A stretch of 64,000 bases of DNA from NCBI RefSeq assembly GCF_007904085.1, contig NZ_CP042326.1, positions 2,108,001-2,172,000 of the forward strand. The letters are read 5' to 3'. The DNA is from Euhalothece natronophila Z-M001. Its GTDB lineage: Bacteria > Cyanobacteriota > Cyanobacteriia > Cyanobacteriales > Rubidibacteraceae. Below the pieces are notes generated by a model, which did no database searches, was not told where the DNA came from, and saw only the letters and a list, made by a program, of their open reading frames with translations. Position numbers and translations under genes: made by a program. Position 1 is the stretch's first letter, and every line of letters starts with the position of its first letter. Below are positions 34,979-54,300 of the stretch, one piece after another.

Positions 34979-35223
34979 AAAAAAGTCAATTTAAGTTGTC
35001 ACGTTCAAATTATACGGAAAACGGGTTTAGGGAGGAGCGCGATCGCGCCTAGTATAATTTTCTCAGCAACTGATATAGCAATCCTAAATGATTTGTAAAC
35101 ATTTACATAATTATATAAAATTGCTAATAGGGCATCTAGCAGATTGTTTTCTTTGAGGGAGATTACCGTGACGCTCTCTCAAGAGCTTTCTATTGAAACA
35201 GCCAAATGGAGAGATTGAGAAAA

Positions 35224-36330
35224 ATGAGTGATGAGTTTTCAAGCAATAGTTTAGAAAAGCTAGACCAATTTATTAACAGCAATCCCGAACCGAGAGAACT
35301 AAAAAGAGCTTTGGCAGTACAGATGCTGACTCAAGGGGTAAAAAGGAAAAAAATCCAAGAAATCTTAGGAGTTTCTGCTCCTTTTATTAGTAAATGGAAA
35401 GTTCGATATGCGTGGGAAGGCTTGGAGGGATTGAAACTTAAACATCGAGGTTCGAGGGGGTATCTATCAAAGCGCGATCGAATCTTCGATTCGGTGAGCG
35501 GAGCTCAATCGCGCTGAAGTAATCCGCTGGTTAGAACAAAAGACTCAAGTACATTTTAGTGAGTTAAAGGCTCATCTAGAAGATGGTTACGGGGTGGAGT
35601 TTAAGTCAAAGCAAAGTTACTATGACTTGTTTAAAGAAGCCAGAATGAGTTGGAAGAAAACTCAAAAAAAAATCCCAAACGAAATGAGGCTTTGGTGGAA
35701 AATAGACACAAAGAAATCTGCAATTTGTTAGAAACCCATCGCGAGGAGATAGAGAGGGAAAGGCTGATTATCTATATAATTGATGAATGTCATCTCCTGT
35801 GGGGAGATATTTGTGGATATGGGTGGGGAACGACATAAGAAAGGTTAGAAGTTCCCATGACGAATGAGCGAGCTCGTGCCACCTACTATGGAGCATTAAA
35901 TTATCAAACCAAAGAGTTTGTTATCCAAGAATATGATCAGGGAAATGCCAAGAATACCGTTTTATTTTTACAGTCATTAAGAGCCCTCAATCCCGAGAAA
36001 AGACTGTTAATCATTTGGGATGGAGCAAGTTACCACAAATATAAAGAAATGAAAGACTATTTAAGTGAAATTAATGACGGTTTAGAGATGTCAGAAAGAC
36101 CAATTCACTGTGAAATTTTAGCCCCAAATGCTCCCGAGCAAAATCCAGTTGAAGATATCTGGTTAAAAGCCAAAAACTTTCTGAGGCAGTTTTGGTATAA
36201 GCTAAATTCATTTGGTTTGGTCAAGTGGTTATTTGAGTTATTTCTTCAGAAGGAAGTCTTTGATTTTCCGAAACTACATAAGTATGGTATTTTTTCTAAA
36301 GAGGAAGAAATGGTTGCTTATTCTACTTAA
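35224..36330 (+). pseudogene. IS630-A transposase, broken
   Basis: The reading frame is broken by three lesions. (1) A 31-nt net insertion in a HIP1 site at 35474-35512 shifts the frame. (2) A frame change at a run of nine A (near 35664-35672) would be cured by one more A, or by -1 slippage. (3) An in-frame TAA after GYGWGTT (near 35836) replaces an expected sense codon. Parts are recognisable: an HTH region (QEILGVSAPFISKWKVRY), DDE motifs YIIDECHLLWGD, LLIIWDGASYH and NAPEQNPVEDIWLKA. No functional protein is likely. Confidence 0.85.
35474..35512 (+). repeat. Double-hairpin microelement in HIP1 (variant 2)
   Basis: Between GCGAT and ATCGC are two small hairpins: CGAATC/GATTCG with loop TTC, and TGAGC/GCTCA with loop GGA, joined by one G. 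Removing the 31 nt between CGAT and CGC restores an intact HIP1 octamer (GCGATCGC) and the transposase reading frame. The architecture is that of the copies at 37415 and 54136, with unrelated stem sequences. Confidence 0.75.
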
Positions 36331-37073: not shown

Positions 37074-37138
37074 TAATACCATCTCTGATAACTTATGCTA
37101 CAATGCCTCGGAAGTAAAATGACTTGGAGTTAAGTGCC

Positions 37139-38236
37139 ATGAGAGTTAACTATCAATGCGTCATTCAAGAAACTCCCTCACAACTGAAAAAACTTCAAAC
37201 CCAGCAGAAAGAGCTTTCAAAATTTCGGAAAATGCAAGGTTTATATTTGCTAAAAACCGGTGAAGTAAAAACAGTGACTCATCTAGCGACTTATTTAGGA
37301 GTGCATCGGGTAACTATTCAAAGATGGTTAAAGAGCTATCGCCAAGAAGGAGTAAACGGATTATTAACCGAACCAGAGGATCAAGGAGGGCGACCACCAA
37401 AAATAGAAGGAAGCGCGATTGCCTTCGGCAAATGGCAGAGCCATATCGCAGAGCTACAAGAAAGACTATCACAAGAAGAACAAGGATTTAGAAGCTACGG
37501 AGAAATCCAAAAATGGTTAGAAGATAATTACCAGATTTTCCTCAACTATAAAACGCTATACCATTTGGTGAAATATAAACTAAAAGCGAAACTGAAAGTT
37601 CCTAGACGAAGCTCAGCCAAGAAGAATGAAAAAGAAGCAGAAGGCTTCAAAAAAAAACTTCCTAATTTGCTAAATGCAGCGAAATGGCTGGAAGAAATGG
37701 AAAGGAAAGAAAGTCGAAAAATTAGGTATTGGTGTCAAGACGAAACGCGATTAGGATTAAAGACAATTGAAAGAAAAAGAATTACAGCTCAGGGAGTTAA
37801 GCCAATAGGAAAGGTGCAATGGGAATTTGTCGCTTATTATTTGTATGGAATAATTGAGCCAAGTAGTGGAGATAATTTCTTTCTAGAATTTTCTCACTTA
37901 GATAGTGATTGTTTTCAAGTCTTTTTAGAGCAAGTGTCTAAACACTCTCCGAATTGTTTGAATATTATTCAATTGGATCAAGGGAAATTTCATCAAAGTA
38001 AAAACTTAAAAATTCCCGAAAACATTTTATTACTATTTCAACCGCCAGCTAGTCCAGAGCTAAACCCAATTGAAAGGTTTTGGCAATATATTAAAGACGA
38101 ACTAAGTTGGAACTTATATGAAGAACTGGAAGAGCTTAAGGAAGAAGTAAGAACTATTTTAACGAAAATTACACCGAAAACTATCATCTCTCTAACCAAT
38201 TGGGATTACCTACAAAAAGCTCTTACTGTAGTGTAG
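37139..38236 (+). CDS. IS630 family transposase (element B)
   Basis: DDE transposase of about 365 aa. The N-terminal HTH part is TVTHLATYLGVHRVTIQRWL; the catalytic motifs are IRYWCQDETRLGLKT, IQLDQGKFHQ and SPELNPIERFWQYIK. An in-frame 9-residue segment (around AFGKWQSHI) comes from a HIP1-borne microelement at 37415-37449, so the protein carries an unusual insertion in the linker after the HTH, but the frame is open. I use the ATG at 37139; a TTG lies 15 nt upstream. Confidence 0.88.
   Translation: MRVNYQCVIQETPSQLKKLQTQQKELSKFRKMQGLYLLKTGEVKTVTHLATYLGVHRVTIQRWLKSYRQEGVNGLLTEPEDQGGRPPKIEGSAIAFGKWQSHIAELQERLSQEEQGFRSYGEIQKWLEDNYQIFLNYKTLYHLVKYKLKAKLKVPRRSSAKKNEKEAEGFKKKLPNLLNAAKWLEEMERKESRKIRYWCQDETRLGLKTIERKRITAQGVKPIGKVQWEFVAYYLYGIIEPSSGDNFFLEFSHLDSDCFQVFLEQVSKHSPNCLNIIQLDQGKFHQSKNLKIPENILLLFQPPASPELNPIERFWQYIKDELSWNLYEELEELKEEVRTILTKITPKTIISLTNWDYLQKALTVV
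37415..37449 (+). repeat. Double-hairpin microelement in HIP1 (variant 1, copy a)
   Basis: Outer GCGAT/ATCGC encloses hairpins TTGCC/GGCAA (loop TTC) and ATGGC/GCCAT (loop AGA). Removing the 27-nt insert restores GCGATCGC and the transposase frame GSAIAEL. The same 34-nt core occurs at 54136-54169, in another unrelated gene. Confidence 0.85.
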
Positions 38237-53340: not shown

Positions 53341-54300
53341 TTACATCTTATGTTGCTGGAAAACATCCATTAAGGTAGGGCAATATGCTTTTAAGCCAAA
53401 AGTTTGAGGATTAATAGGAGTTTGATGGCTAAAGTGCCGATATTGCAGACAAAATTTATCCCATTTTGCCATTTCAATCCGAAAGATAACAATCAGAATA
53501 TTTGCCAGCGTGAGGGATAAAGGAATGCGAAAATAAATACGCTTTCCAAAATACTGACACAGGGTTTCAATGAGTTGATTCGCACTAATGCGAGGACTTC
53601 CTAAAACAATTTCTCTAGTTTGGGTTGAGGGATTTTGTATTAAATAATGAACCGTCGTGGCAATATCTTTACCGTGAATAAAATGGAAGCTACCATCAGC
53701 TTTCAGCCAACGGGCTAAGTTAACCCATTTTCCTACTTCAGGAAGCCCAGAGGAAATATGAGAATGGGGTTTATTGTCATCACCTCCTAAGACAAGAGTT
53801 GGGAAAACAATGGTTAATTTCGAGGCAAGGGGATGTTCTTTAATGCGGAAATAACACTCATATTTAGAACGAATATATTCAGTTCCTAATTCCCCTGCTT
53901 GCGGTAACGGCTGGTGATAATAGTCGAGAATACTAGCAGTAGAAAAGTAAATAATTTGCTGACAAGTATTACTATCTAATAAGTCTAATAGTTCTAGATT
54001 TTTCTCAACATTAATTCTAAAGGTTTCTTCTTTTCCTCCCCAAATTGTTGCAGCAAGGATAGCAATATCAATGGTTTTGAGTAAGTCTTGAAATTCATTG
54101 ATATTCTCTAAATTACCTTCTAGAAGATGAATCCCCGATTGCCTTCGGCAAATGGCAGAGCCATATCGCGCTTTTGTATTAAACTGAACTTTAGCCACAT
54201 TTCTAACTAAGAAAAACAGTTCATGATCGCTATTTTCGATTAATTCTTCAGCAAGATAATGACCAACACAACCACTTCCACCCGTAATAAAAATTCGCAT
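53341..54300 (-). CDS. NAD-dependent epimerase/dehydratase family protein
   Basis: 319-aa extended SDR. The dinucleotide-binding loop ITGGSGCVGHYLAEEL is at residues 4-19. The catalytic pattern is YIRSKYECYFRI (Tyr-x3-Lys). The region at residues 43-53 (ARYGSAICRRQ) comes from a microelement inserted in the frame and would disturb the loop after the second beta strand, so function may be altered. The C-terminal domain (IETLCQYFGKRIYFRIPLSL) is complete. The substrate is unknown. Confidence 0.8.
   Translation of the reverse strand: MRIFITGGSGCVGHYLAEELIENSDHELFFLVRNVAKVQFNTKARYGSAICRRQSGIHLLEGNLENINEFQDLLKTIDIAILAATIWGGKEETFRINVEKNLELLDLLDSNTCQQIIYFSTASILDYYHQPLPQAGELGTEYIRSKYECYFRIKEHPLASKLTIVFPTLVLGGDDNKPHSHISSGLPEVGKWVNLARWLKADGSFHFIHGKDIATTVHYLIQNPSTQTREIVLGSPRISANQLIETLCQYFGKRIYFRIPLSLTLANILIVIFRIEMAKWDKFCLQYRHFSHQTPINPQTFGLKAYCPTLMDVFQQHKM
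54136..54169 (-). repeat. Double-hairpin microelement in HIP1 (variant 1, copy b)
   Basis: 34 nt identical to the core at 37415-37449, in the opposite reading direction relative to the host gene. The 27-nt net insertion falls in a CGATCG site and preserves the epimerase frame, adding nine residues (YGSAICRRQ). Confidence 0.85.

Follow-up and report, generated by a model that had tools for sequence, protein, structure and literature searches.

The closest described relatives of the elements studied here are the SDR families of cyanobacteria. Elhai and colleagues are said to have described in 2008 (Genome Res. 18:1484) SDR families of 21-27 nt, confined to one cyanobacterial subgroup (the Nostoc group) and in some cases nested, with a structure common to SDR4, SDR5 and SDR6 that was backed by compensatory mutations. 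SDR5 was reportedly found only in HIP1, and the view taken is said to have been that of an RNA intermediate. HIP1 itself, according to the available part of another paper (PMC4390886), is strongly over-represented in the majority of cyanobacteria and has no settled role; the same part places the insertion of SDR5 in Nostoc-type cyanobacteria between nucleotides 3 and 4 of HIP1, and gives an extended HIP1 for Halothece PCC 7418 (gCGCGATCGCGc), with Dactylococcopsis salina also having TCGATCGA. A second source, likewise available in part (PMC6006769), describes REPs of subclass 2.4 as abundant in cyanobacteria and able to lie in frame inside genes. In this study, three small elements were analysed in a 64-kb window (the whole stretch of 64,000 nt from Euhalothece natronophila Z-M001), and they are considered, with a probability of about 0.78, to represent a mobile repeat of the SDR5 kind that is very small and non-autonomous.

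The window elements were read directly from the sequence and scanned by script. Element A (35474..35512, + strand, 39 nt) consists of GCGAT, a 6-bp hairpin with a TTC loop, one spacer nucleotide, a 5-bp hairpin with a GGA loop, and ATCGC (GCGAT CGAATC-TTC-GATTCG g TGAGC-GGA-GCTCA ATCGC). Element B (37415..37449, + strand, 35 nt) has a 4-bp TTC hairpin, one nucleotide and a 5-bp AGA hairpin (GCGAT TGCC-TTC-GGCA a ATGGC-AGA-GCCAT ATCGC), and the third copy (54135..54169, + strand) has CCGAT as its left end, then the core of element B and ATCGC. The sequence-only reading had claimed a two-hairpin plan between HIP1-type ends, a 34-nt core shared by the second and third elements, the same plan with unrelated stems in the first, and perfectly self-complementary arms. 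The three elements as so described were confirmed: the plan is present in each, the 34 nt at 54136-54169 are identical to 37416-37449, the stems of A (CGAATC and TGAGC) are unrelated to those of B (TGCC and ATGGC), and every hairpin arm is perfectly complementary to its partner. The pairing of the outer GCGAT and ATCGC, also claimed, held for A and B, in which the outer arms closed both hairpins in RNA and DNA folding (one strand of element B as DNA folded with a small register shift), but not for the third copy, which has CCGAT and whose outer arms were open in the RNA MFE structure. Single elements folded modestly better than shuffles as RNA (z -1.15 to -1.98), and the DNA folds of elements A and B had z values of -2.59 to -3.17. 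An Rfam scan of the 64-kb window at the gathering score left the elements unmatched and returned one tRNA only (997-1070).

All three window elements are evidently, judging by homologous sites, insertions into HIP1 or CGATCG. Element A is a 31-nt insertion in HIP1 within an IS630-type transposase gene, which it shifts out of frame: the N-terminal (HTH) half (35206..35517, + strand) is cut off just after the element, the C-terminal DDE part of the same transposase lies at 35857..36330 (+ strand), and the HTH and DDE_3 domains fall on separate halves. Element B is a 27-nt in-frame insertion in the HIP1 of a second IS630-type transposase gene (37124..38236, + strand; 370 aa, with relatives annotated as IS630 family), and the third copy is a 27-nt in-frame insertion in a 319-aa NAD-dependent epimerase-type gene (53341..54300, - strand); both genes are open through their element. 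Copies of the first transposase in the window (35206-36330) and at locus L065 (on the 82-kb contig C2) are 83% identical overall, and both carry element A at the same site within a 57-nt identical run. This sharing between two paralogues may reflect common descent, conversion or two insertions.

When homologues were compared, as the sequence-only reading had proposed, the inner sequence was absent and HIP1 or CGATCG was present at all three window places, and also elsewhere. For element A, the homologue L061 of genome G005 has an empty AGCGCGATCGCGCTG, and the window frame without the 31 nt continues as in L061, over a short right-side homology of ~25 nt. For element B, the homologue L080 of G002 (70% identity over the gene) has an empty GCGATCGC. 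At the site of the third copy, five of five same-genus orthologues (72-74% identical) have CGATCG without the 27 nt, two of them as full HIP1; in one, the aligner splits the 27 gap columns. AT stands on both sides of the inserts, and 27 or 31 nt are added at the three window places. Outside the window, locus L011 differs from its within-genome paralogue L089 by a 31-nt gap (82% identity over 531 nt; 91.8% over 305 nt for the joined flanks), and clean empty and filled sites were also seen for L034/L112 and L126/L021. Some targets were CGATCG or TCGATCGA and not full HIP1. The empty/filled pairs are known from comparison, at 70-92% identity, and rows from repeat arrays or partial matches were left out of the tally. 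A filled site may also be passed on by descent: one gene site is empty in L008 and filled in L062 and L066, and these two count as one insertion because their flanks are shared.

Chance was assessed in a 464-kb sample consisting of the window and 20 evenly spaced 20-kb stretches, which were not picked by covariance model. Double hairpins without HIP1 ends numbered 45 in the 464 kb and 47-58 in five shuffles; this lack of enrichment indicates that the fold alone is not the signal. Among 38 GCGAT…ATCGC spans of 22-35 nt, three held perfect double hairpins and four held double hairpins with at most one mismatch, against expectations from core shuffling of 0.000 and 0.003, respectively. For 363 control 5-mers of similar frequency, none of 5,458 spans held a double hairpin. 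Two of the three perfect spans are the window's own elements, and the 400 kb outside the window contributed one perfect and one single-mismatch element. Double hairpins that exactly fill the span from GCGAT to ATCGC are far beyond chance.

Genome G000 has the core of element B at six places, exactly in three of them and with 2 mismatches in the other three. The flanks reduce these to four contexts, of which two hold exact copies and two hold variants: two of the exact copies have identical transposase sequence around them, and a short repeat is common to two of the variant ones. Elements of the A type occupied six distinct contexts among 11 loci compared. Five loci of genome G003 (L119, L120, L125, L127 and L128) belong to a MITE-like repeat of ~250 nt that carries elements as passengers. 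L119, L120 and L127 have one element at a given point and L125 has a longer form. In L128, by our reading of the sequence, a whole element is nested in the GCGATCGA made by the start of another, and the other four copies of the repeat seen have one element at this nested site. The repeat also has a TCGATCGA site that is plain in L119 and L120 but holds a different, decayed element in L125 and L127. At L099 (G000:C1:2607000-2620000), L100 (2591000-2597000), L145 and L124, many partial matches revealed long arrays of degenerate repeats that bear HIP1, approximately GCGATCGCGCTTCC...CATCCCAAAACA, with several elements embedded.

The search for further genomic copies, also proposed by the sequence-only reading, gave between 9 and 49 matches in each of six same-genus genomes. 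At E<=1, a covariance model (R1, 10 sequences) returned 39 matches in G000, 9 in G001, 26 in G002, 25 in G003, 22 in G004 and 49 in G005, counts that are perhaps lower bounds, as 150 candidates were scored per genome, and that include about one expected chance match per genome. Each model was built from sequences of one length, since a mixed-length MAFFT alignment misplaced the arms. From the loci of part of the R1 matches and from BLAST matches, an element finder that required stems of 4 bp or more, GAT and ATC, and a full GC end on one side or both, and that tolerated a single mismatch in each hairpin, yielded 101 elements with distinct 25-nt flanks, representing 84 distinct sequences, many of them unrelated. 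Lengths were 35 nt (67 elements), 36 nt (1), 37 nt (10), 39 nt (13) and 41 nt (10), which on subtraction of 8 nt correspond to inserts of 27, 28, 29, 31 and 33 nt. The elements stood between CGAT and ATCG in 94 of the 101 cases, the finder itself having required GAT/ATC and one GC end, and the GCGC flanks around many of them are explained by the extended HIP1 of the clade. A 1-nt spacer fitted all 101, under a scoring that mildly favours 1 nt.

Stem pairs in the 84 distinct sequences, taken in the short-first orientation, were Watson-Crick in 791 of 809 cases (13 A·C, 2 G·T and 3 other), a rate that is inflated because the finder rule selects for pairing, and 44 distinct stem pairs were seen, some with a mismatch. 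In the 35-mers read on the strand with the 4-bp stem first, there were 11 A·C mismatches and no G·T, as would be seen if the other strand were the one that folds; this hint is weak, since 6 of the 11 A·C recreate GCGATCGC and the longer elements include 2 G·T. Covariation was measured in 44 of 50 distinct 35-mers. Stem cells were paired in 97.2% (shuffle mean 69.3%), cells changed on both sides numbered 99 (shuffle mean 30.3), both partners had changed in eight of nine pairs (5.4 on average in shuffles), and the covariation score was 0.637, compared with 0.142 in shuffles and 0.150 in the best slid control. The remaining one of the five measures, further pair types, showed no excess in this set (15 versus 14.8 in shuffles). 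The 35-mers had been pre-selected for pairing, so the evidence lies in the variety of the pairs and not in the percentage. The earlier proposal of a family defined by fold more than by sequence is supported by these data.

The origin of these compensatory changes has a real rival explanation, in which the elements were inserted and their pairing is a by-product: template switching during replication of the hairpins would copy one arm onto the other, with no selection for the fold and no folded intermediate. The same stem often occurs with both loop polarities, as hairpin inversion would give (TGCGC with GGA four times and TCC four times, CGAGC with TTC three times and GAA four times, TGCC with GAA five times and TTC twice), and the paralogous sites L119 and L125 of G003 have differing yet perfect first hairpins beside an identical second hairpin. 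Template switching nevertheless leaves unexplained the narrow set of sizes and the near-fixed C-G pair closing the loops, and it sits poorly with the spacer that fits every element and with the lack of enrichment of hairpin pairs without HIP1. It was judged unlikely.

The loops are more constant than the stems. A C–G pair closed the loop in 192 of 196 triloop hairpins, and the loop was R-N-A or its complement in 186 (GAA 90, AAA 29, AGA 26, GGA 25, GTA 15, GCA 1 and others 10). The GAA triloop, d(GCGAAGC) and GNA loops are ultra-stable DNA mini-hairpins, according to the available part of the literature (PMC11101458), and the near-fixed C(RNA)G loops are of this type, a resemblance that speaks a little more for single-stranded DNA than for RNA. 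Within an element, the two loops had opposite polarity in 41 of 48 scorable distinct 4+5 elements, so that one strand seldom has two GNA-type loops, which argues against a simple recognition of both loops on one strand.

The reading of the elements as copies of a mobile repeat draws on the precise insertion into CGATCG, the copies in unrelated flanks, the nesting, and the retention of the fold while the letters change. Insertion could occur by the joining of an insert X into a CGAT^CG cut with a 2-nt 3' AT overhang, or X could itself bring one AT; the two are indistinguishable because AT is its own complement. The intermediate in copying would be a folded single strand with two triloop hairpins, and the copying machinery would recognise the fold and not the sequence, which would allow the stems to drift while staying paired.

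A search for a mobilising enzyme among Y1 transposases (PF01797) in G000 to G005 found none whose counts track those of the elements: matches, pieces included, numbered 3, 9, 8, 1, 1 and 6. These were mostly strong, full-length and of IS200 size, with G000 having one full-length match without stops and G001 including one weak match in a 185-aa frame. This result bears on a second alternative, that the elements belong with the REP/REPIN repeats and that a REP-associated tyrosine transposase (RAYT) moves them via single-stranded DNA. Such repeats are also small hairpins of variable sequence, those of subclass 2.4 can lie in frame in genes according to the available part of the source (PMC6006769), and some stems here start with GTAG or GTGG. 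The GTRG is however inside the stem, in only part of the stems, and is not a 5' foot; the insertion point is HIP1, and the Y1 counts do not follow the element counts, so that this explanation appears very improbable.

The position relative to open frames was determined for the 90 elements with enough flank. Seventy-two lay outside open frames of >=200 codons, shorter genes being invisible to this approach; the remaining elements were in frame (12), left the frame (4) or broke it (2). GC skew in 20 samples showed no clear halves. The location outside long frames and the conserved fold would suit a host that keeps the elements as structural RNA or DNA signals (transcript stability, nucleoid sites), their mobility being old, but this explanation is very improbable, given that elements occur in transposases, in the epimerase-type gene and in other long frames (12 of 90 in frame), that element A breaks a transposase frame, that none of the five orthologues found has the third copy, and that the compared loci suggest no conservation at orthologous places across the genus.

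For the distribution beyond the genus, 117 genomes drawn evenly from the phylum were surveyed under strict filters, at the cost of weak matches. At E<=0.001, model R2 matched 14 genomes and the 32-nt model R3 matched 11, together 18 of 117, some single matches being doubtful; the other 99 had no match to either model under these filters. Genome G028, of the same class and another order, gave >=59 matches of the 32-nt type among 61 candidates scored, with stems of 4+4 bp and no spacer in those read. This type is also present on a Planktothrix agardhii plasmid. A 35-mer of G023 matched 24 plasmid records, including Nostoc, Anabaena, Trichormus, Tolypothrix, Scytonema, Chroococcidiopsis and Planktothrix, and five fetched plasmid places had their sequences read. 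The same plan with other stems was seen in Nostocaceae, in Planktothrix and in another order. Several candidates were set aside: an R2 match in G032 looks like coding DNA, single matches such as those in G075 or G131 may be chance, and L028 (a planctomycete), one of two loci from a contig scan, was taken for coding DNA that matched by chance. When element A was compared with plasmids by BLAST, the four matches were weak and came from proteobacteria, and a Nostoc-type 35-mer (L163) had no match among phages. The L163 locus, which has a double-hairpin element (family f14), also contains tandem HIP1 units 27-30 nt apart at 445-594 and 2098-2163.

A broader and more tentative proposal, to which we give somewhat less than even odds, is that of a phylum-wide class of mobile elements below 40 nt, defined by fold alone. 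It would consist of two C(RNA)G triloop hairpins with a spacer of 0-1 nt and a CGATCG target, served by an enzyme that reads single-stranded hairpins and cuts the HIP1 core. Its sequence lineages would be the published SDR5, the hypervariable Halothece type and the 32-nt type known from G028 and Planktothrix.

The precise landing in the HIP1 core suggests that something cuts or opens the DNA there, and ordinary cyanobacterial strains offer a way to test the mechanism, thanks to the empty/filled pairs and the nested copy. As the elements share a fold and few letters, sequence searches miss the family and its range may be underestimated. If real, these elements would reportedly be among the smallest mobile DNA elements known, and as tiny hairpin-pair repeats they extend a class of extremely small mobile repeats that is known but poorly understood.

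In comparison with known systems, Rickettsial palindromic elements are likewise palindromic inserts that keep reading frames, but they are longer (more than ~100 nt), belong to another phylum and are not tied to one target of 6-8 nt. MITEs, by their usual definition, are also non-autonomous dispersed repeats with a possible short target duplication; the elements described here are far shorter, and no terminal inverted repeats of a parent transposase were recognised in them. REP and REPIN sequences share the short hairpins, the variable sequence and, as far as the available part of the source goes (PMC6006769), the occasional in-frame position inside genes. They differ in having a GT[AG]G foot 5' to the hairpin, whereas GTRG is found here only inside some stems, and the present elements are bound to HIP1, with two triloop hairpins and a 1-nt spacer.

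The likeness to SDR5, one of description and not of letters, is the closest. The empty sites place the insertions precisely between the third and fourth nucleotides of HIP1, as the accessible account of SDR5 has it, and HIP1-borne 35-mers of the same plan occur in the named Nostocaceae plasmids. The 27-nt inserts fit the range of 21-27 nt that SDRs are said to have, and the fold with compensatory changes seen here stands beside the one reportedly described for SDR4, SDR5 and SDR6. The elements differ in that their inserts reach 33 nt (31 nt in element A), outside that range; in that they occur in six of six Halothece-type genomes, on a Planktothrix plasmid and in G028, where SDR5 is said to be restricted to the Nostoc group; and in the many stems per genome in the Halothece-type genus. 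Within the openly licensed literature searched, there was no report of the Halothece-type form or of a range outside the Nostoc subgroup, and sequence words of the Nostoc-type elements gave no related mention. The sequence-only reading had left open whether this folded class was described: given the close likeness, the kind is already known as SDR5, inserted in HIP1 in Nostoc-type cyanobacteria, in the available part of the source (PMC4390886), and the Halothece-type form, which is hypervariable and longer, looks like a new form of this SDR5-like kind.
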